This document shows positions 50,463-60,370 of a DNA stretch of 64,000 bases, in pieces. The notes under the pieces are model-generated. The model was not told the origin of the DNA. It did no database searches and was given only the letters and a program-made list of their open reading frames with translations. The stretch spans positions 62,001-126,000 of the forward strand of contig JACRBT010000004.1 in the NCBI GenBank assembly GCA_016234445.1. Direction: 5' to 3'. The position numbers and the translations under genes are program-made. The stretch is from Chloroflexota bacterium (GTDB taxonomy: Bacteria > Chloroflexota > Dehalococcoidia > Tepidiformales > Tepidiformaceae). Positions within the stretch are counted from its first letter, which is position 1. The number at the start of each line of letters is the position of its first letter.

Positions 50463-51509
50463 TCACCTGCGAACTCGCAGCCACACCACGAGCACCAGCA
50501 GGGCAACCGCCAGCAGCGCCGCCAGCACCGGCAACGTGGGGATCCACCCGTCGTCCGATGAAGCGACGCTCGGCTGGAAGCCGGCAAGGATGGTCGCTTC
50601 ACGAACTTCGCTCAGGAGCGGGACGCCCTCGTAGCGCACAGGGTGTCCGTCACTCACCTCCCAGACGGCACTGCCGGCGGCGACTCCCCGCCACCCGGCC
50701 ACGCCGAACTCGTCGCGGACGACCAGTGCGGCCACGCGGGTGCCGGTCGGCCACCATCCGCGGAGGCTGGTCATGCTCAGTTCGCAGAGATGCTGTTCGT
50801 TCGCGGAGAAGTAGTGGTCGTTGAGGGTGATTTCGCCACGGAGGTCACCCCGGAACGACTCGCCGATGCGGAGTACGGTGGCGCCATCCCGGTGGTCTAC
50901 GACCGTCGCGATGACGATCGCCTCGGCTATGCCCGCGAATATGGCCGCGTCCCGGGGCGGCACGTTCCAGGCCCAGCATGGGGTTGTCGCATCAAGCGCG
51001 GGGGCGTTCGGCGTCGCGGCGAAGTCCCTGAAGGCGGCGCGCACGTCCTGGATCTCCGGAGTTGACCGGGGAGCACCGCCCCCGTACGAGACCAGGGCGT
51101 TTCCGTCGACCCGGAAGATGTCGTAACCGGCGCGGGCGACCTTGTAGCGGGCGACGCCGAACGTGTCCGGGATGAGAAAGACGAGGACGCGGGAGCCGGC
51201 TTCGTAGTTCTGACGCCCCTCCTCCACCGTCTCGTAGCAGTCCAGGTTGGTGGCGTTGTTGATCGTCAGGCGGTCCCCGGCGGAGGCGCCCTTCAGCCCC
51301 TCGTCGACCACCAGCGTGATCACATCACCGGAAGGCGACTCCAGCGTGCCGACGGCGACAACCTCGGCACTGTCGACGTTGCGTGGCAAGTCCCGCGTAT
51401 GGAAGCGGACGATGGTGCAGGCCCGGGCAGGGGCCGCGCCGCTGGCCCAAAGCTCGGCCGCGACGAAGAGGCCGAGGGCGATGATCGCGGCGACGAGGCT
51501 GGTCCGCAT
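50463..51509 (-). CDS. Exported, C-terminally anchored OB-fold (NTR-like) protein
   Basis: 348 aa. Signal peptide SLVAAIIALGLFVAAELWAS to about residue 27, with mature start near ARACTIVRF. Two copies of a domain that resembles the netrin/TIMP-like OB fold: AEVVAVGTLESPSGDVITLV then VDEGLKGASAGDRLTI, and AEAIVIATVVDHRDGATVLR then IGESFRGDLRGEITL. A C-terminal membrane helix, PVLAALLAVALLVLVVWLRV, anchors it outward. Last of the minus-strand gene set that starts with the Fe-S protein at 58029. Function unknown. Confidence 0.65.
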   Translation of the reverse strand: MRTSLVAAIIALGLFVAAELWASGAAPARACTIVRFHTRDLPRNVDSAEVVAVGTLESPSGDVITLVVDEGLKGASAGDRLTINNATNLDCYETVEEGRQNYEAGSRVLVFLIPDTFGVARYKVARAGYDIFRVDGNALVSYGGGAPRSTPEIQDVRAAFRDFAATPNAPALDATTPCWAWNVPPRDAAIFAGIAEAIVIATVVDHRDGATVLRIGESFRGDLRGEITLNDHYFSANEQHLCELSMTSLRGWWPTGTRVAALVVRDEFGVAGWRGVAAGSAVWEVSDGHPVRYEGVPLLSEVREATILAGFQPSVASSDDGWIPTLPVLAALLAVALLVLVVWLRVRR

Positions 51510-51575
51510 ACCAGTCCTAACGCCGGCGAGGGTCCGACGGTTTCACGCGGCAAGCCAGGCAGCCAGGGGCGGCCG

Positions 51576-52124
51576 CTACCGGAAGGGGTTGCCGCCGCCG
51601 CTCGCCTCAAGCTCCTGGCACGACTTCACTCCGGCCGAGACCGGGCCGAACCGGGTCTTCAGGTCCGCCGACAAGTCGATCACCTGCCTCCACTTCCCGG
51701 TATCGGGCGTGCCTCGCAGAGCGAGAAGCTTCTGCCGGTCGCTGCGTGTGAGCGCGTCCAGTACGTCCTTCGCCTGCCGGATCGTGTCGGCGTGTCCGGC
51801 GGCGGCGTCAGCCGGCGGGGTCATCTTCTCAAGGTCGGCGATGAGCAGCGCGAACGGGTCGCGGGCGATCTTCGCGTAGGCGTCGGTGGGGTCCATCCCG
51901 CTCATTGAGGCCAGGTTTTCCTTGAAGCTCGCCTGGTACGTGGTGTACATCCTCGCCGCGGCGGTGCAAACCTCATCGACGTATCGCTCCGGCGCGGCCG
52001 GCGCCGTCGGGACCGCGGTCGAACCTGTCGGGTTGCTGTCCTCGCTGCTTCCACAGGCAACCGCGGCGATCGACGAGAGCACAGCGGCGGCAGACAGCAG
52101 TAGAAAGACGCGGGCGGTGGCCAT
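51576..52124 (-). CDS. Lipoprotein of unknown function
   Basis: ATG 52124, after GAGGAGA, gives 182 aa; the open frame to 52205 extends past the signal. Signal VFLLLSAAAVLSSIAAVACG with lipid Cys at about residue 23, a short Thr/Pro linker, then an all-helical domain, YVDEVCTAAARMYTTYQASF to IRQAKDVLDALTRSDRQKLL, containing two further cysteines (VCTAA and SCQEL) that could pair. No family recognised. It is in the set of lipoproteins downstream of the NrfD/cupredoxin genes. Confidence 0.75.
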   Translation of the reverse strand: MATARVFLLLSAAAVLSSIAAVACGSSEDSNPTGSTAVPTAPAAPERYVDEVCTAAARMYTTYQASFKENLASMSGMDPTDAYAKIARDPFALLIADLEKMTPPADAAAGHADTIRQAKDVLDALTRSDRQKLLALRGTPDTGKWRQVIDLSADLKTRFGPVSAGVKSCQELEASGGGNPFR

Positions 52125-52211
52125 GGCAGTCTCCTCTTTCACCCTTGACGATGTCGTCAGCCCGGCCTCGGAGCGGACCCGAGGCCGGGCCGGGGGCGAA
52201 TTCAACCAACC

Positions 52212-53819
52212 CTAGGGGACGATTTCAAACGCCAGCCGCATCGCGGGGAGACGGTAGCCAAGGCCAAGCCCCGGCGCGTCGTCACGGTAGGTAAGGATAG
52301 CCTGCTGGTAGCCCCATGGGGGCTCGCCATGGCCCTGGTAGATCATCGGGTAGAGGTCGATGAGGTGGATCCCCGGCTCGCCTGTCGCGATCAGGTAGAC
52401 GGTCGCGTCGCCGTTGCTGCTGAAGCCGCAGGCAAAGCCGATGTAGGCGTTGTCGTAGGTCATGGCGAAGCCGTTGTCGAGTTCGGTCCAGCCGATGCCC
52501 TTGACCCGGATCTCGATCTGGTCGCCGGCCTTCACCTTCTTCGGCGAAATGCCGTCCACGTAGAAGCTGCGTTCGACAAAGAACGGCACCTCGCCCACTA
52601 GCTCGCCACCAGCGACGGCCTGGATCACATGCCAGCCGCCGAGGTCGTCCGGGATCTGGACCTTCGCCTCGAGGCTTCCGTCCGCGCCGCTCGTTGCTTT
52701 CCCGAGCGAGACTTCGGTGAGAGCCCAGCCGCTGGGATTGACCCGGTTCCCGCGCGCGGTCACGTAGAAGAGCTCCGCTGCCGTGTTGGGCTTCAGGCCG
52801 GTCGCCTTCACGGTCACGTTCGAAAGGATCGGGCCTGACTTCGGTTCGGTGGTGAGCTTCGCCGAGCCAGCCTTGCCGCTCGAAGTCGTCCGCGGGGCCG
52901 CGGCATCGCTGATCACGGCGCGGTCGTCCGGCCAGTCGATCACCGCCGGCGGCAGCGTCTTGTCATCAGTCACCGTGAACCGGAACTGCCAGTCGGGGAT
53001 GTTCGCGGTCCCGGACTGCTGGTTGTTGAGATAGGGCACGGAGCGGGCGCCGTGCTCGACGTCGATGACGTGCTGGCCCGCCTTCCCGGCCGCCCGGATC
53101 ACCGCCGTGGCCGTGCCGCGCGTGGTGACGGCGGTGACGATTCCGGTCGGCATGTTGTCGTAGCGGATCGCGATCGTGCTGTTGAACTGCCCGTATCCAA
53201 GCCCCGTCACCTTGATCGTGATCGGCGTACCTAGCGGGCCCGATTCAGGCGTGACCGTCACCTTGCGCATCACCCGGAAGCCAGCCTTGGCCACATCCTG
53301 GCCAGCGACCGCACCGAAGATGTCGTGGACTTCGCCGTAGTCGGAGGGCGCCACCACCGGCGCCGTCACCTTGCCGTCGGCTCCGACCGTGGCCTTGCCG
53401 AGGCTGAGCCGCTTGGGGGCGAACACCTTGTTGTTGAACTGGATGTTCTCCGGCCCTGTGGTCAGCTTCCATGACCCTTCAGCCGTTGCCCAGAAGAACT
53501 CCATTTCCTTCCCGGCCGGGAGTCCTTCTCCTGTGATGGTGAAGGCGGTCCCGATGGCGCCGTTGTCCGGGGAGACTTTGAGCAGCTTGAGGTCGGCGGC
53601 CGGCGTCGCCGCAGTGGTGACGGAAGCGGCGGGACTGCCGGAGGCTGCCGTGGGGGACGTTACACCGGTGGCCGATGTCGTTGGTGTGCCTGCGCCGTCG
53701 GAGTCGCCTCCACAGGCGGAGAAGAGGGTGGCCGCCGCGGCGAGGAGGGCAGCGCCAGCCATCAAGGACCTGGGGATAGGGTGCCTGGAGAAGGGTACGG
53801 AGAACCATTCAGCGTGCAT
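52212..53819 (-). CDS. Lipoprotein with IPT/TIG-like beta-sandwich repeats
   Basis: ATG 53819, with GAAGGAG upstream, gives 535 aa. Signal SLMAGAALLAAAATLFSACG, lipid Cys at about residue 36, then a Thr/Ser/Ala linker. Four beta-sandwich repeats begin with LLKVSPDNGAIGTAFTITGE, VTVTPESGPLGTPITIKVTG, LTTEPKSGPILSNVTVKATG and FYVDGISPKKVKAGDQIEIR. The G-x-x-x-x-x-V/I-T-I-x-x-x-G-L pattern is typical of IPT/TIG immunoglobulin-like domains. A large extracellular structural protein, in the Fe-S/NrfD/cupredoxin gene set. Confidence 0.8.
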   Translation of the reverse strand: MHAEWFSVPFSRHPIPRSLMAGAALLAAAATLFSACGGDSDGAGTPTTSATGVTSPTAASGSPAASVTTAATPAADLKLLKVSPDNGAIGTAFTITGEGLPAGKEMEFFWATAEGSWKLTTGPENIQFNNKVFAPKRLSLGKATVGADGKVTAPVVAPSDYGEVHDIFGAVAGQDVAKAGFRVMRKVTVTPESGPLGTPITIKVTGLGYGQFNSTIAIRYDNMPTGIVTAVTTRGTATAVIRAAGKAGQHVIDVEHGARSVPYLNNQQSGTANIPDWQFRFTVTDDKTLPPAVIDWPDDRAVISDAAAPRTTSSGKAGSAKLTTEPKSGPILSNVTVKATGLKPNTAAELFYVTARGNRVNPSGWALTEVSLGKATSGADGSLEAKVQIPDDLGGWHVIQAVAGGELVGEVPFFVERSFYVDGISPKKVKAGDQIEIRVKGIGWTELDNGFAMTYDNAYIGFACGFSSNGDATVYLIATGEPGIHLIDLYPMIYQGHGEPPWGYQQAILTYRDDAPGLGLGYRLPAMRLAFEIVP

Positions 53820-53897
53820 GACCGGCTCCTTCGGGCCCGCGGCCATCCGCGGGCCCTGTCACGTTCGAGTTTGCTTACCGCCCGGAACCCCAGGGGG

Positions 53898-54662
53898 TTA
53901 CTGGACGACTTTGGGCTTGGTGTCGATCGTCGGAGAGACCAGGGACGGGAGCTTCCAGGTGACGGCCTTGCCATCCTTGGTGATGACGATCTTGTAGTCG
54001 ATGCCGCCCAGCGGGTAGTCGAGCGGGATGTCCCAGTTGGAGCTCCACATGAAGGGAGCACCGGGGACCGAGCCGCCGGCGCGCTGGGAGAAGCGCCCCG
54101 CCGATTCGTCGCCGTTCGGCAGGACGACCTTCACGGTGACTCCAGTGTCCTTGTCGGTGATCCGCTTGCCGGTGTTGACGTCCAGGATCTCGTAGCGCCA
54201 CACGATCCGCTGGCCGCGGGCAAAGACGCTGCTGGGCGTGCAGGCAAGTGTTGACGCGACGTTGTACTTGCTCGCTGTCGTGGTGGCGATTGTCTCCACG
54301 TAGATGAAGTAGTCGCCGGCCTTTTCGTAGTACGACGCCGGCGCGGTTTCCCGCGGGGCGGCGGTCGGGGGTGTTGATCCCGCGGGGAGCGGGGTGTTCG
54401 TTGGCCGCGGCGTCACGGAGACGGCGGCGATGAGGCCTGCCCCCCCGGCGGCCTTGGTTTCCGGCGCGGTGGTCGGCTTCGCCTGGAGCGATGCCACCTG
54501 CGTCTGAAGCTGGTTTGCCTCGGCTTCGCTGTCTTCTGCCTGCTGCTTGACCTTGTCGTAGTCGCTCTGGGAGACGCCTCCGCCCCCGCAGGCGACCGCG
54601 ATGGCCACGAGTACACCGATCAAGCCGAATGCGGCGACTCTCCCTGCTGCTTTCCTGGACAT
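53898..54662 (-). CDS. Lipoprotein with coiled coil
   Basis: ATG 54662, after AAGGAGG, gives 254 aa. Signal RVAAFGLIGVLVAIAVACGG, lipid Cys about residue 25. A coiled coil follows, SQSDYDKVKQQAEDSEAEAN and QLQTQVASLQAK, then a Pro/Thr linker and a C-terminal beta domain (about 130-254) with FARGQRIVWRYEILDVNTGK and WDIPLDYPLGGIDYKIVITK. An outer-face lipoprotein; the last part resembles the bacterial Ig/FixG-like fold. Same strand and spacing as the cupredoxin gene upstream; likely same transcript. Confidence 0.75.
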   Translation of the reverse strand: MSRKAAGRVAAFGLIGVLVAIAVACGGGGVSQSDYDKVKQQAEDSEAEANQLQTQVASLQAKPTTAPETKAAGGAGLIAAVSVTPRPTNTPLPAGSTPPTAAPRETAPASYYEKAGDYFIYVETIATTTASKYNVASTLACTPSSVFARGQRIVWRYEILDVNTGKRITDKDTGVTVKVVLPNGDESAGRFSQRAGGSVPGAPFMWSSNWDIPLDYPLGGIDYKIVITKDGKAVTWKLPSLVSPTIDTKPKVVQ

Positions 54663-54774
54663 TCCGAATCCTCCTTGGCCCTTTGAGCCATGTTTTAGAT
54701 AACTGAGACTGATGACCAGAGCCGCTTTCCCGCTCGCGCGCAGACTACTACGGCGAGTCAAGAGGCAGCTTCGG

Positions 54775-55707
54775 TTACGCCGAGGCATCACCTCCCGGAC
54801 CTCCGTCCCCAACGCGCGAGACGCGCCAGGCCTGGTAGAGGATGAAGATGAAGGCCGCCCAGATGAGGGCGATGAGCGAAATGAGGGCCGCAGGAGCCCA
54901 GTCCTTGAGTTCAACGAGCTCCTGGCTGTGGCCCGAAGCCGGCAGCACACTCTCACCGAACTCCGCCTGGAAGGCTCTGCTCGCCGGGATATCCACGGCC
55001 AGCTCCGAAGCGTCGTAGATCCCCATGCCTTCGAACTTCGCGGTGAGCTTGAGGGTGCCGGTAAGCGTGGGTTCGTAGACGAACCTGGCCTGGCCGACCG
55101 GACCAGTCCGCTCCTCGCCAATTTCAACGAGCCCGGACCGCCCTGCGAAGGACTGGTTGATGAAGAAAGTTATGTCGCCCTTCGGGATAGGCTGGTCCTT
55201 GTCGTCCAGGAGGGAGGCATTCACGGTCACCTTCCCGTCCTTAATCGAGATCGCGGCAGGCTCAATCGAGATCTTCGTCTTCGTGAGCGCCGCGCCGCCC
55301 CCGCCGGAGCCCGTCTTCACCTTCAGGACGCCATTCTGGAGAAAGTCGTGGAGATCGCACTCCAGGTCGCACTTGAACGTGAAGGTGCCGGGCTTGTTGG
55401 CAACGATCTTGATGGTCGCTTCCTTATGCTGCGCGTCGATCTTGTCAGACTCTACGTTGTAGCCCTCGAGGACCATGATGTGTTCTTCGTTTGGATAGGC
55501 CTTGTGGTCCCAGATGAACGTGATCTCGACGAGCTTGCCTTGCTCCACCTCGATCGTCTCCGGGTCGAGCCCGCTATCGGTCACCTTTACCGTGATCTTC
55601 GTTGCTTCCTGGGCCACCGCCGGGGTAGCGAGGGGGTGCACCCCGGCGATGACGGTGAAGGCCAGGAGGATGGCCAGGGAGGCGAGTGCAAGGCGACGAC
55701 TCTTCAT
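54775..55707 (-). CDS. Membrane-anchored cupredoxin with unusual copper ligands
   Basis: ATG 55707 gives 310 aa; the frame to 55734 is less likely. Signal LALASLAILLAFTVIAGVHP (to about residue 35). The cupredoxin barrel is at 38-135, with His in NEEHIMVLEGY and the loop FKCDLECDLHDFLQNG: C-x3-C-x2-H. CuA sites have C-x3-C-x3-H-x3-M; here the His is one residue nearer and Met is replaced by Leu. A second beta domain (140-250) and a C-terminal helix, AALISLIALIWAAFIFILYQ, anchor it. It is directly downstream of the NrfD gene, so it is a candidate electron acceptor or shuttle of that complex. Confidence 0.8.
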   Translation of the reverse strand: MKSRRLALASLAILLAFTVIAGVHPLATPAVAQEATKITVKVTDSGLDPETIEVEQGKLVEITFIWDHKAYPNEEHIMVLEGYNVESDKIDAQHKEATIKIVANKPGTFTFKCDLECDLHDFLQNGVLKVKTGSGGGGAALTKTKISIEPAAISIKDGKVTVNASLLDDKDQPIPKGDITFFINQSFAGRSGLVEIGEERTGPVGQARFVYEPTLTGTLKLTAKFEGMGIYDASELAVDIPASRAFQAEFGESVLPASGHSQELVELKDWAPAALISLIALIWAAFIFILYQAWRVSRVGDGGPGGDASA

Positions 55708-55717
55708 TTCTGAAACC

Positions 55718-57070
55718 TCAGCCCTGTGGGGCAAGCTGCGCTGGCGGCATCGCTGGCGGGACTTCGGCAGCCGAATGCTCTTCTTCCCATCCCTCCGTCA
55801 TTTCCCAGATGGAGATGATGGGGAAGAGCTTGGCAAAGATGGTGATGAGCAGAGCGAACCCTGCGAACGATGCGATCGTGATGAAGATTTCCGCGGCCGT
55901 CGGCGTGTAGACACCCCAGGCATACGGCATCAGCGGCAGGCTCAGCGACGGCACGACGATGACGAACCGCTTGATCCACATGCCGATGTTGGCAAGAACG
56001 GACACGGTCACCAGGAGCGGGATTGTCCTCGTCTTCGGGATCGCCGCGATGACGACGGGCAGGAGCTGCCCACCGAAGAAGCCGAACCAGACGAGTGGAG
56101 CGTAGCGGCCGAAGAACAGCTCGCCGAGAAGGAGGTCCTCTCCGCCTTCGAGCTTGTAGGTGACGGTCAGGTATTCCGCGAAGGTGAAGTAGAGATAGAT
56201 GATCCCGAAGGCGGCGAGGAGGATGGCAAGGTACTGGAAGTGCTTCTCGGTCAAGTACTCTTCCAGGTGGTAGACCCGGCGGAAGATGAACATGACCGTG
56301 ATGAGCATTGCCGTCCCCGAATAGAGCGCGCCGACGGCGAAGTAGGGGGCGAAGATCGTGCTGTTCCAGCCGGCCCGGAAGGTCAGCCCGAAGATCCAGG
56401 AGACGACCGAGTGGGTGGCGACACCGAGCGGGATGATCATGAGCATCATGATCGTGCCGCCGAGTTCGAGCCTTCGGCGCTGTTCCGGGAGGCCGCGCCA
56501 GCGCACCCCGAAGATCGAGTACAGCCGATGACGGGCGCCCGACACCCGGACGCCCGTCCGGTCACGCAGCAGGGCTGAATCGGGGATGAGGAACAGGAAG
56601 AGGTAGATGAGGCTCGCCGCCAGGTAGGTGGGGATGACGAGGATGTCCCAGAGGAGTGGCGATTCCAGGCGGCCATAGACCAGGAGGTGCCAGAGCCGGT
56701 CCGGGCGGCCCATGTCGATCGCTGGCATCAGCGCGCACATGCTCAGGGCGGCCACGGTGGTGAGTTCGGAGAATCGCGTGAGCGGGCGCCGCCATTCGGC
56801 GCCCGTCAGCCGAAGGATGGCGGAGATGAAGGTGCCGGCCATGCTCAGGCCGCTGAAGAAGACGAAGTTGGAGATGTAGACGCCCCAGATGACGTCGTCG
56901 CCCATCCCCGTGACGGCGAGACCATCACGGACCTGGTAGGCGTAGGCGATGAAGCCAAGGACGGAAAGCGCAATCAGGCAACCCGTCCAGATGAACCAGG
57001 TTTGGGAGAAGCCGGTCAGGGGGGCCAGGACCCGCTCTTCGAGTCGTTGCTGTCGCTCTGAGGCATTCAT
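55718..57070 (-). CDS. NrfD/PsrC-family quinone-interacting membrane subunit
   Basis: ATG 57070 overlaps the TGA of the Fe-S gene (TGATG); 450 aa. About ten hydrophobic helices. Conserved NrfD features include NFVFFSGLSMAGTFISAILR (helix 2), ALMPAIDMGRPDRLWHLL, with the Asp-x-Gly-Arg-Pro motif, and YRRDL-like GRLESPLLWDILVI. The C-terminal cytoplasmic tail is acidic and Pro/Ala rich. NrfD/ActC proteins oxidise or reduce quinol in the membrane and exchange electrons with a Fe-S protein on the outer face. No heme ligands are apparent. Confidence 0.93.
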   Translation of the reverse strand: MNASERQQRLEERVLAPLTGFSQTWFIWTGCLIALSVLGFIAYAYQVRDGLAVTGMGDDVIWGVYISNFVFFSGLSMAGTFISAILRLTGAEWRRPLTRFSELTTVAALSMCALMPAIDMGRPDRLWHLLVYGRLESPLLWDILVIPTYLAASLIYLFLFLIPDSALLRDRTGVRVSGARHRLYSIFGVRWRGLPEQRRRLELGGTIMMLMIIPLGVATHSVVSWIFGLTFRAGWNSTIFAPYFAVGALYSGTAMLITVMFIFRRVYHLEEYLTEKHFQYLAILLAAFGIIYLYFTFAEYLTVTYKLEGGEDLLLGELFFGRYAPLVWFGFFGGQLLPVVIAAIPKTRTIPLLVTVSVLANIGMWIKRFVIVVPSLSLPLMPYAWGVYTPTAAEIFITIASFAGFALLITIFAKLFPIISIWEMTEGWEEEHSAAEVPPAMPPAQLAPQG

Positions 57071-58029
57071 CACTTGGCCCCTTCCGTCTGCGGGTGCTCT
57101 TCTGCCTTGTGCTTCTCTTCGAGCTTGTCGAGCGTCATGCCCTGCTCCTGCCATGAGCGCGGCTCCTTGGGGATCAGGTTGTCGTCGACGTGGTGGCCGT
57201 ACTCCTGTCCATGCCCGGGGATGTACCAGACGCGGGGCTTCGTCCCCAGGTCCTCCTTGAGGCGGTAGGCGGAGTTGTCGGCGAGGAACCGCGAGAACTT
57301 GAAGACGTCTTTGCCGTTGGTCGCGACGTCTTCGGTCATGTCGGCGAGGGAGATCGCGAACATCGGGCACCCGGACGCGCAGGCCGGGATCTTGCCGTCC
57401 TTGGCGCGGTGAGCGCAGAGCATGCACTTTTCGACGGTGCCCTTGCGGTGGGGCAAGGGGTATTCGGGGCTGTAGTTCGCGAGCGCCGCCCCGGGCGGGT
57501 TCTCAGGTTCGCCCCAGTTGAAGCGGCGGACGCCATAGGGGCAGGCTGCCATGCACATCCGGCAGCCAATGCAGCGGTCGTGGTTGATGAGGACGATGCC
57601 CTCTTCGTTGTGGTACGTGGCCCCGACGGGACAGACCTTGGTGCAGGGTGCGTTTTCGCACTGCATACAGAGCCGGGGGAGGAAATGCGGGTGCCCGCCG
57701 GGGCCTTCGACTTCGAAGACCTGCAGCCATTCCTGGCCCGGGGGAACAAAGTGCTCGGCGTTGCAGGCCTCAACGCACTGGGGGGCCTTGTCGATGGTGG
57801 TGCAGCCTTCGCACTTCCGCAGGTCGATGACCATGGCCCACTGGCGCTTCGGGCCGGTGGACGCGGAGGCCTTCACCTCGGGTTCAGCGGAGACGTGGTT
57901 GGCGAGGGGGATGACGCCCGTGGCGCCCAGGGCGGCAGCGGCCCCGATGCCGCCCAGCAACCGGCGCCGCGAGAGCGGCTGTCGTGGGGACTTGCCGGCG
58001 GGCTGGGGTGAGGTTCGTTCTGTTTCCAA
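57070..58029 (-). CDS. Tat-exported four-cluster Fe-S protein (NrfC/DmsB/ActB-like)
   Basis: TTG 58029, with GGAGGG 7 bases upstream, gives 319 aa; the open frame to 58431 runs into the divergent regulator. Tat signal SRRRLLGGIGAAAALGATGV (residues 20-39). Sixteen cysteines in four groups: CEGC...CVEAC, CMQCENAPCTKVC, CIGCRMCMAACPYG and CMLCAHR...CASGC, the pattern of the 4x[4Fe-4S] subunit of molybdoenzyme-like complexes. It should pass electrons between the NrfD subunit and a partner outside the membrane. Its stop is coupled to nrfD. No catalytic molybdopterin gene is in the window. Confidence 0.93.
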   Translation of the reverse strand: METERTSPQPAGKSPRQPLSRRRLLGGIGAAAALGATGVIPLANHVSAEPEVKASASTGPKRQWAMVIDLRKCEGCTTIDKAPQCVEACNAEHFVPPGQEWLQVFEVEGPGGHPHFLPRLCMQCENAPCTKVCPVGATYHNEEGIVLINHDRCIGCRMCMAACPYGVRRFNWGEPENPPGAALANYSPEYPLPHRKGTVEKCMLCAHRAKDGKIPACASGCPMFAISLADMTEDVATNGKDVFKFSRFLADNSAYRLKEDLGTKPRVWYIPGHGQEYGHHVDDNLIPKEPRSWQEQGMTLDKLEEKHKAEEHPQTEGAK

Positions 58030-58192
58030 GGTAGTGCCCTCCCGTGTGTAGTTTCGCGGCGGCGGGAGACCGCTACATCCGTGGACACGCGCGTTGTTCG
58101 CAGGTGAAAACACCCGGGTCCCGACAGGTATCTCTGCTCGCCTGTCCCGCGGGGGAAGGGGCGTAGAATCAGGGCAACCAGGAGGTGGTGCC

Positions 58193-58858
58193 ATGTCGTC
58201 GGCTCCCATCCGCGTACTCATCGCCGAAGACCACGCGGTGGTGAGGGAAGGGACGCGCCAGATCCTCGCGGCCGACCCTGGCATCGAGGTGGTGGGGGAA
58301 GCGGAGGACGGCCAGCAGGCACTGGAACTCGCGGGGCAGCTGAAACCGGACGTGCTGGTGCTCGACCTGCGGCTCCCCGTGGTGACAGGGATCGAGGTGG
58401 CACGAAGGATCGATTCGTACGCGCCGGACACGCGGATCCTGGTGTTGAGCGCCTACGACGACGACGACTACGTGTTCGCGGCGATGGACGCCGGGGCCGC
58501 AGGCTACCTGCTGAAAACGGCTCACGGCGAAGAGGTGGTCAGTGCCATCCATTCGATTTCGCGCGGCGAGGTGGTGCTCCAGGCCGCCGTGGCTTCGAAG
58601 TTCCTCCGCAGCCACGGGAACGCCCGTCCCGGCGCCGACTACTACGAAGAGAAGCTGACGGAGCGGGAGATGGAGATCCTGCGGCTGGCGGCGCTCGGCC
58701 TCCGGAACAAGGAGATCGCGAGCCGCCTGAACCTCAGCCAGCGGACGGTGGAGGGGCACCTGAGCCACACCTTCGCCAAGTTCAACGTGGGGTCGAGGAC
58801 GGAGGCGATCCTGCATGCAGCCGCCCGGGGTTGGCTGGTCATCCCGAACACCTCGTAA
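58193..58858 (+). CDS. NarL/LuxR-type response regulator
   Basis: ATG 58193, with AGGAGGTGG 4 bases upstream, gives 221 aa; TAGAAT (58163-58168) is the -10. Receiver domain: VLIAEDHAVVREG (acidic pair), VLVLDLRLPVVTGIE (phosphorylated Asp about residue 56) and GYLLKTA (Lys). LuxR output domain with LTEREMEILRLAALGLRNKE and IASRLNLSQRTVEGHLSHTF (about 150-205). Divergent from the Fe-S/NrfD operon and followed by its kinase. Likely activator or repressor of that operon. Confidence 0.95.
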   Translation: MSSAPIRVLIAEDHAVVREGTRQILAADPGIEVVGEAEDGQQALELAGQLKPDVLVLDLRLPVVTGIEVARRIDSYAPDTRILVLSAYDDDDYVFAAMDAGAAGYLLKTAHGEEVVSAIHSISRGEVVLQAAVASKFLRSHGNARPGADYYEEKLTEREMEILRLAALGLRNKEIASRLNLSQRTVEGHLSHTFAKFNVGSRTEAILHAAARGWLVIPNTS

Positions 58859-58900
58859 GATGCCGGGCATCCAGGCGAACTTCCCGGGGAGGGGGAAATC

Positions 58901-60370
58901 GTGAACTCTCGTTCGATCCCCGCGCTCCCGGCTCCGCCCCAGGCCGGCGGGGCGCGGCCGGCTGCCCCCCAACGGCTGCAGCTGCGGCCGCCCATCCGCC
59001 AACGGCGTTTCTGGGAGATCCAGGCGCTGATCGCGGCCGTGACGATCTTCCACGTTGCGTTCGAACACTTGAACCCGGACCTGCTCGGCCCGGCCTACTT
59101 CATCCCTGCGTCCCTCTACCTTTTCCCCGTCATCTATGCGAGCTTCTACTTCGGCTTCGCGGGAGCGTTTCCGACGGCGGTCGTCTGCGCGGCACTCGCC
59201 ACCCCAGGCCTGTTCGTGACGCATGCCGCCGGTGCGCGGGTGGGCGAAACGATCCAGATAGCGACAATCCTCCTGCTCTCGATGCTGGTGGCGGCCCGGG
59301 TCGACCGGGAAACCGTCGCGCGCCGAGCCTCCGAGCGTTCCGAGCGGGAGCGCGCCGTTTCGGAGACGAAGTACCGCGCGCTCTTCGAGAACGCGGGGGA
59401 GCCCATCCTCGTCGTGGATCAGGCCGGCACCATCCGGGAGGCAAATGCGGCAGCGGCGCGGCTTGGGATCGACCTCGACCAGAGAGGCCGCGGCATTGAC
59501 GAACAGCTGGGGCCGGGTGCGCAGGAGATCCGGAACTTCCTCGGCGGGCACATCGATGAGCCAGGAGACTTCAGCCTGCAGCGCGTCGATGGGTCGGAGA
59601 TCTGGGTGCAGCCGGTGTTCACCTCGATGCCAGACGGCGAACAGGAGGAATTGACCCAGGTGCTCCTCCGCGACGTGACCGACCGCCATGGATTCCAACA
59701 CTATGCCCAGCAGATCACGCGGGCACAGGAAGACGAGCGGAAGCGGATCGCCCAGGAACTCCACGATGTGAGCGTGCAGGCCGCCATCCTCGTCTGCAGG
59801 CGGCTCGACTCGGCGAGCGCGGCGGTCGAGAGCGAAGACCCGGCGGCGGCGATGCGTTCGATCGCGGAGGCGCGGCACACGGCCGAGACCATGGCGGACG
59901 AACTCCGCCGGTTCAGCCGCGACCTGAGGCCGCTGATCCTCGAGGACCTTGGCCTCGTGCCTGCCCTCAAGCGGCTCGTGACCGAGCTGCAGGAGCGGTC
60001 GGAGATGCAGGCGCGCTTCGAAGTCCACGGCCAGGCCCGGCGGCTCGACGCAGGGACGGAACTGGTGCTCTTCCGGATTGGACAGGAGGCGTTACGGAAC
60101 GCCGAACAACACGGTTCGCCGACCCGAGTGTCGTTGCGCCTTACCTTCGAACGCGACGCCGTCCGGCTCGGAGTCGTCGACAACGGGGCCGGTTTCGTGG
60201 TGTCGCCATCGACGGCGTTGGTCACGGGGAGCCTGGGGCTGCTGGGCATGCAAGAACGGGCGCGGCTGGTCGGCGGGCGTTGCCAGATCCGCTCGAAACC
60301 GGGCGAGGGGACGCGCGTCACCGCTGAGATTCCCATCGACCCCTCCCGGGCTGGCTCCACCGCCCCCTGA
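58901..60370 (+). CDS. Sensor histidine kinase (PAS, HisKA_3)
   Basis: GTG 58901 after GGGGAGGGGG gives 489 aa. Four or so membrane helices at about 35-140. A PAS domain at 155-260 begins FENAGEPILVVDQAGTIREA, then ends at VLLRDVTDRH. The HisKA_3 motif, EDERKRIAQELHDVSVQAAI, places the phosphorylated His at about residue 290. HATPase: NAEQHGSPTRVSLRL, VVDNGAGF and GSLGLLGMQERARLVGG. NarX/DegS-type kinase, partner of the regulator 42 bases upstream. A membrane redox or lipid signal is a reasonable guess for the input. Confidence 0.95.
   Translation: MNSRSIPALPAPPQAGGARPAAPQRLQLRPPIRQRRFWEIQALIAAVTIFHVAFEHLNPDLLGPAYFIPASLYLFPVIYASFYFGFAGAFPTAVVCAALATPGLFVTHAAGARVGETIQIATILLLSMLVAARVDRETVARRASERSERERAVSETKYRALFENAGEPILVVDQAGTIREANAAAARLGIDLDQRGRGIDEQLGPGAQEIRNFLGGHIDEPGDFSLQRVDGSEIWVQPVFTSMPDGEQEELTQVLLRDVTDRHGFQHYAQQITRAQEDERKRIAQELHDVSVQAAILVCRRLDSASAAVESEDPAAAMRSIAEARHTAETMADELRRFSRDLRPLILEDLGLVPALKRLVTELQERSEMQARFEVHGQARRLDAGTELVLFRIGQEALRNAEQHGSPTRVSLRLTFERDAVRLGVVDNGAGFVVSPSTALVTGSLGLLGMQERARLVGGRCQIRSKPGEGTRVTAEIPIDPSRAGSTAP

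Follow-up and report, generated by a model that had tools for sequence, protein, structure and literature searches.

A probable molybdenum-free NrfD-type quinol dehydrogenase with an apparently exchangeable copper or heme tip in Chloroflexota and other phyla

A 64,000-nucleotide stretch of the Chloroflexota bacterium assembly GCA_016234445.1 (contig JACRBT010000004.1, positions 62,001 to 126,000; hereafter, the window) encodes, head to tail, an iron-sulfur (Fe-S) protein, an NrfD-type membrane protein and an anchored cupredoxin, and raises the question of what such a redox module does without a molybdoenzyme gene. A preliminary description, made from the sequence of the window, had proposed that electrons pass from quinol through NrfD and the Fe-S protein to copper, with no molybdoenzyme involved. 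The gene order that it gave, including a divergent kinase/regulator pair, agrees with the coordinates and the Pfam matches, and no MopB match was found in the 64-kb window. Comparison with related loci supports the proposed route, and we consider it likely that the module is a molybdenum-free quinol dehydrogenase of the NrfD type which feeds an exchangeable periplasmic one-electron carrier. The core of the locus comprises the following features.

57070-58029, minus strand: Fe-S protein with four [4Fe-4S] cluster motifs, predicted to be exported by twin-arginine translocation (Tat), DsrO/NrfC-like, not fused to MopB (NCBIfam, conserved Cys)
55718-57070, minus strand: NrfD integral membrane subunit, ActC-like, predicted to bind quinol (PF03916, ActC matches in PDB)
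54775-55707, minus strand: third subunit, with signal peptide, CuA-like cupredoxin, immunoglobulin (Ig)-like domain and C-terminal transmembrane (TM) helix (PF13473, 45.8 bits; alignment; AlphaFold2 model)
55336-55482, minus strand: predicted copper-ligand set H76, C113, C117, H120 and Q124 of the third subunit (alignment of 13 sequences)

The Fe-S gene, which has a TTG start preceded by a GGGAGGG site, overlaps the NrfD gene at TGATG, and the cupredoxin gene starts 10 bases past the latter. The stand-alone Fe-S protein (319 aa) carries the N-terminal Tat motif SRRRLLGG; a Tat-like motif is present in 72 of 78 homologues, and each of the 16 Cys residues that make up the four full cluster motifs is kept in at least 74 of the 76-78 aligned homologues. 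The membrane protein clearly belongs to the NrfD family (PF03916, 104.2 bits against a gathering threshold of 25.8), and its closest solved structure is ActC of alternative complex III (ACIII; phmmer against PDB chains, E 9e-58 to 2e-56). When the residue table of PMC8076601 is transferred through a HMMER alignment to R. marinus ActC, NrfD is identical to ActC at 18 of the 23 published quinone and proton residues, namely 12/13 in the N-side channel, 4/6 in the P-side channel, including the gate Arg395 (R368 in NrfD), and 2/4 in the quinone site (S137 and D142). Since the gate role of the ActC-type Arg was not borne out in QrcD (PMC13059093), proton pumping by the module would be a possibility only.

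To assess how general this arrangement is, 80 named loci were collected from GTDB genomes with a profile of eight NrfDs. They span Chloroflexota (including Dehalococcoidia), Bacteroidota, Acidobacteriota, Actinobacteriota and metagenome-assembled genomes (MAGs) labelled as archaeal; many are draft MAGs, the archaeal labels may be binning errors, and contig ends hide neighbours in 15 loci. The Fe-S gene adjoins NrfD in 77 of the 80 loci, and in 67 NrfD is followed by a third gene that ends in an Ig-like domain and a TM anchor, several of the remaining loci ending at a contig edge. A MopB gene lies within 10 kb in 5/80 loci, on the same strand in three, and the families differ. Among 400 Chloroflexota genomes, all 24 fetched matches to the Ig-TM part stand beside an NrfD gene, whereas the matches to stand-alone cupredoxins do not; full-length third genes of the copper type are uncommon and their occurrence is scattered (6 of the 400 genomes, in six families). 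Thus, neither of the two outcomes that the preliminary description had named as fatal to its proposal, that is, MopB always adjoining or fused to these genes in homologous loci, or cupredoxin homologues that never accompany NrfD, was encountered.

The third gene is the variable part of the module. In the window, the order of its domains is signal peptide, PF13473 cupredoxin, Big_3_5-like stretch and C-terminal helix (AlphaFold2 model with a mean predicted local distance difference test score of 84.6). The N-terminal domain is a cupredoxin in 13 loci and in the window, and a CxxCH-bearing domain, read as a monoheme cytochrome c, in 16 loci, heme domains being called mostly by this motif (the heme tip of L065 is recognized by Pfam as a class I cytochrome c); in the remaining third genes it is absent or replaced by an extra Ig repeat. 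Where no redox domain is fused, a separate cytochrome c gene (27 loci) or CuA gene (4 loci) is often found on the same strand within 5 kb, so that a carrier is present near 31/51 unfused loci on the same strand vs 4/51 on the opposite strand, which served as control. On the NrfD tree, a quick tree with several forks open, the copper, heme and tipless states change at least 8 times, and the heme-type locus L060 is placed inside the cupredoxin clade. Such alternation of copper and heme on one anchor would be expected of an exchangeable electron exit, and this swapping adds support to the route from quinol to copper.

Combining these observations on gene content, gene order, domain swapping and the conservation of copper ligands and ActC-type residues, we propose the following mechanism. 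Quinol would be bound by NrfD near the outer face of the membrane, with ActC-like proton half-channels in the same subunit; the Tat-exported Fe-S protein would take the electrons through its four [4Fe-4S] clusters and, presumably within a complex of the three proteins, hand them singly to the copper center of the third subunit on the outer face of the membrane. The latter, anchored by the Ig-like domain and one TM helix, would be the exchangeable electron exit; in relatives, the same anchor with a cytochrome c, or a separate cytochrome or CuA protein, would do the same job. From there, electrons would pass on to an acceptor in the periplasm or outside the cell, which would not be the same in all organisms.

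Several facts weigh against this proposal. Two of the ActC quinone-site residues are changed in NrfD (H139 to D and D253 to I), and some relatives (e.g., L108 and L106) have no redox carrier either fused or within 5 kb. No dedicated acceptor is encoded near the window locus, and the same genome also encodes a bc complex and an aa3 oxidase; therefore, the role of the module is not obligatory. Finally, the direction of electron flow is not fixed by sequence.

The chemistry of the copper site is the first point on which the alternatives have to be weighed. All five predicted ligands are invariant in the 13 aligned sequences from bacteria and archaea, which are 22-44% identical to the window protein and share few invariant columns overall. 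The window cupredoxin shares with the CuA domains of COX2 and N2O reductase (N2OR) the fold, the His, the C-x3-C, the second His and an axial-type residue; it differs in that the second His is one residue closer, an invariant Gln takes the place of Met, and the domain is attached to the Ig-TM part beside NrfD, not to an oxidase. Its ligand spacing, H-x36-C-x3-C-x2-H-x3-Q (one of the 13 sequences has an extra residue between the Cys), accordingly fails to match the canonical CuA motif, H-x34-C-x3-C-x3-H-x2-M (PMC6189053). The modelled fold is similar to that of CuA domains, though other cupredoxins score alike: in VIA-align, the cupredoxin of a three-domain copper nitrite reductase (Z 13.3) and nitrosocyanin (Z 12.4, rmsd 1.8) rank at or above CuA of N2OR (1fwx; Z 12.0, rmsd 2.3) and of ba3 oxidase (2cua; Z 11.1, rmsd 2.0). 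Auracyanin and the copper chaperone CupA (4f2e) are further fold matches, and a phmmer search of PDB with the cupredoxin protein gave no match. Because of the altered ligand spacing, and in line with the ranking of folds, a mononuclear site of type 1 or of the red, nitrosocyanin-like type, in which the second Cys is structural and the mechanism is otherwise the same, has to be taken seriously. Nevertheless, the invariance of both Cys between Chloroflexota and archaea, in sequences as little as 22% identical, argues for a dinuclear CuA-like site, as does the separate CuA protein with the canonical motif that Acidobacteriota encode directly upstream of the Fe-S gene. That the cupredoxin binds copper as a sensor or chaperone and takes no part in electron transfer is suggested by the cupredoxin folds of copper chaperones such as CupA and by the adjoining kinase pair, and yet such a role is hard to explain because the same anchor carries copper or heme in turn: replacement of the cupredoxin by a cytochrome c fits electron transfer, not copper handling, and we consider this alternative very improbable.

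The other alternatives concern the direction of flow and the partner. The module could operate as a quinone reductase, with electrons supplied, in the periplasm or outside the cell, by Fe(II), by a cytochrome of the c type or by a type II molybdoenzyme that works as a dehydrogenase, entering through copper or heme and passing via the Fe-S protein to quinone, as in QrcABCD. Indeed, QrcCD catalyzes transfer from a periplasmic donor to menaquinone (PMC13059093). The Mtr/Pio-type conduits next to the acidobacterial modules can serve oxidation or reduction, and heme open reading frames (ORFs) with a Cyc2-like N-terminal motif, identified by eye, lie near the modules of L112 and L085. The potential of CuA- or cytochrome-type carriers is, however, usually well above that of menaquinone, so that the electron step to menaquinone would be uphill; furthermore, all 13 copper-type loci are found in genomes with a heme-copper oxidase, which would fit electrons flowing outward to an acceptor of high potential. 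Reverse operation is therefore, in our view, unlikely. We find it doubtful, too, that the module serves a molybdoenzyme encoded nearby or in trans, for example one of the type II dimethyl sulfoxide (DMSO) reductase family, as its membrane anchor and electron carrier. Type II molybdoenzymes are encoded downstream of the module in L055 and L130, and the genome of the window itself encodes such an enzyme in a stretch without NrfD; against this stand the few loci with a nearby MopB, of differing families, and the genomic context of the three NrfDs of this organism, among which the module NrfD stands out because the other two each adjoin their own MopB. A molybdenum-free quinol dehydrogenase thus remains the reading that we prefer.

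The rest of the locus consists of the following features.

58901-60370, plus strand: sensor histidine kinase with PAS, HisKA_3 and HATPase_c domains, divergent from the module (Pfam)
58193-58858, plus strand: NarL/LuxR-type response regulator (Pfam Response_reg, 99 bits; GerE, 70.9 bits)
53898-54662, minus strand: lipo1, lipoprotein with coiled-coil stalk and beta-sandwich (alignment, model, hidden Markov model homologues)
52212-53819, minus strand: TIG-domain lipoprotein (PF01833), with syntenic homologues downstream in most copper-type Chloroflexota loci
51576-52124, minus strand: small lipoprotein, not conserved with the module (no Pfam or NCBIfam match over cut-off)
50463-51509, minus strand: exported, C-terminally anchored protein, not conserved with the module (no Pfam or NCBIfam match over cut-off)

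The conserved module extends over 52212-60370; its end is placed at 52212 because none of the related loci compared has a homologue of either gene in 50463-52124. The extent given in the preliminary description accordingly holds for the three core genes, lipo1 and the TIG lipoprotein, and has to be shortened by the last lipoprotein and the 50463-51509 gene; the 'OB-like' label attached to the latter finds no backing in Pfam or NCBIfam. In 24 of the 80 related loci, a response regulator/histidine kinase pair is encoded no more than 6 kb from NrfD. Upstream of heme-type or tipless modules in L067, L070, L073, L078 and L116, the kinases carry the c-type heme motif TCHRCH (in L067, with the architecture Cache-HAMP-GAF-HisKA_3) and may act as heme-c sensors that respond to redox state or to a gas. 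Homologues of lipo1 are detected with hidden Markov models in 12 related loci; the lipobox A24-C25 is invariant in the alignment, and so is, in all homologues including the archaeal ones, C141, a single Cys within the beta-sandwich. The model of lipo1, with weak matches to diverse proteins and no cofactor motif, led us to reject it as a redox protein, and there is no sign that the lipoproteins hold an electron acceptor, as had been suggested.

Several relatives depart from the common organization. In the acidobacterial loci L125, L126, L129 and L131, NrfD carries the Ig-TM domain as a C-terminal fusion, and the gene of a free CuA protein with the canonical motif follows a decaheme gene and a large barrel gene just upstream of the Fe-S gene. 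L056:9000-21293 contains two tandem modules: the first is of the copper type, and the one after it comprises another Fe-S/NrfD/Ig set, a diheme cytochrome encoded separately and a further copy of lipo1. The archaeal MAG loci L109:8347-8985 and L127:8552-9115 encode a second, free-standing cupredoxin-like protein directly upstream of the Fe-S gene, and in L071:18458-19726 an archaeal copper-type module is followed by a TlpA-like thioredoxin and a CcdA-like gene, possibly for assembly of the copper site. The cupredoxin gene at L061:11300-12000 is interrupted by stop codons and by inserted sequence, through decay or assembly error.

The electron chains encoded next to the module vary. In L125, a DmsE/MtrA-family decaheme cytochrome and an MtrB/PioB porin, both over NCBIfam cut-offs, are encoded directly upstream of CuA, Fe-S and NrfD-Ig (the barrel gene of L126 matches no family model), and in L115 OmcA/MtrC-family and DmsE-family decaheme genes lie downstream. 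In L083 (Bacteroidota), the module is followed on the same strand by genes for an EB_dh-domain lipoprotein, a CX4CH protein (by eye), a beta-barrel of the DUF5777 type and a cytochrome c. The copper-type locus L055 is directly followed by a type II DMSO reductase-like alpha subunit and a 445-aa Fe-S subunit, and L130 has a NarG equivalog, also a type II molybdoenzyme, downstream. The N-termini of two ORFs of L112 (12447-13823 and 17670-19127), and of L085, near a Bacteroidota-type module, resemble by eye those of Cyc2-type fused cytochrome-porins; the two L112 ORFs match no family model. Because these neighboring chains differ among loci, the module appears to act as a general unit on the quinone side that would be plugged into different acceptor or donor chains. 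The outside acceptor of the preliminary description is suggested indirectly, by the MtrAB/MtrC-type neighbors in acidobacterial relatives; nothing in the present genome suggests one.

In this genome, the bc complex, the aa3 oxidase and the type II DMSO reductase-family alpha-gamma-beta enzyme (L138, C20:384000-399000, the 15-kb stretch without NrfD mentioned above) could each be a partner of the module, the last of them possibly a soluble one. Given the bc complex and the oxidase, we rejected the possibility that the module is the sole complex III of the organism; cytochrome b was not found in four copper-type MAGs, which are drafts and may be incomplete. A strong COX1 match is present in 13/13 copper-type vs 3/11 heme-type genomes (Fisher p 2e-4, with only 3 phylogenetically independent pairs, so that a tie between copper type and heme-copper oxidase is not established).

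Taken together, these observations point to a widespread and apparently undescribed respiratory module. More broadly, we tentatively suggest, with somewhat more doubt than confidence, an undescribed family of quinol:CuA/cytochrome oxidoreductases in several bacterial phyla and archaea, which would combine an ActC-like NrfD, a free-standing Fe-S protein, an Ig-anchored exchangeable tip and a natural CuA-like site with Gln for Met and a shorter Cys-His spacing, and which in diderms would be the inner-membrane terminus of extracellular electron conduits (of the Mtr type in Acidobacteriota, with EB_dh/DUF5777 proteins in Bacteroidota). If so, many uncultured subsurface lineages could use a molybdenum-free, often heme-free exit from the quinone pool, copper and heme would be interchangeable as tips of one quinol dehydrogenase, and a natural CuA variant with a different loop would be available for bioinorganic study. 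In Acidobacteriota, the module is a candidate partner of Mtr-type conduits on the quinone side, and where such genomes are annotated with 'Polysulfide reductase NrfD', the label may wrongly be taken as a sign of sulfur metabolism.

How, then, does the module relate to known systems? PsrABC/TtrABC/DmsABC-type enzymes do not apply, as the 64 kb contain no catalytic molybdopterin subunit. Of the curated NCBIfam models, DsrO gives the Fe-S protein its highest score (180.9 bits, cut-off 200) and DsrP gives NrfD its highest (123.7 bits, cut-off 350), with 52 bits against the QrcD model (cut-off 570); nevertheless, the module genes include no DsrMKJ or QrcAB-like partner, and with scores below the cut-offs and a different gene content DsrMKJOP was rejected. 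ACIII (ActABCDEF) shares with the module an ActC-type NrfD with most of the channel residues, an Fe-S domain, and an external cytochrome c or copper protein as electron recipient; the Chloroflexus complex is given as a menaquinol:auracyanin oxidoreductase (Gao 2009, as cited in PMC3150298). In contrast, the module has a stand-alone Fe-S protein lacking the MopB-like half of ActB, no ActF (second NrfD) beside its NrfD, neither the pentaheme ActA nor the monoheme ActE, and no protein with CxxCH, and carries an anchored cupredoxin or cytochrome tip instead; hence, it is not a canonical ACIII.

By description, a close analogy is with SirCD of Shewanella, which can replace CymA, and CbcSTU (Cbc4) of Geobacter, molybdenum-free Fe-S/NrfD quinol dehydrogenases (PMC11434368) that feed periplasmic carriers; by gene content, the window and the 80 loci likewise join Fe-S and NrfD to a periplasmic carrier without a molybdoenzyme. 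CbcS, however, is a c-type cytochrome, and PMC11434368 describes neither an Ig-TM anchor nor a copper domain in these systems. Open-access literature searches returned no description of NrfD together with a cupredoxin, and a genomic survey that considered CymA, CbcL and ImcH in Acidobacteriota mentions neither NrfD nor copper in its text (PMC6295460). As far as the searches reach, the module is new relative to these systems in its exchangeable tip anchored by the Ig-TM part, in a CuA-like set of ligands that departs from the canonical one and in how widely it is distributed.

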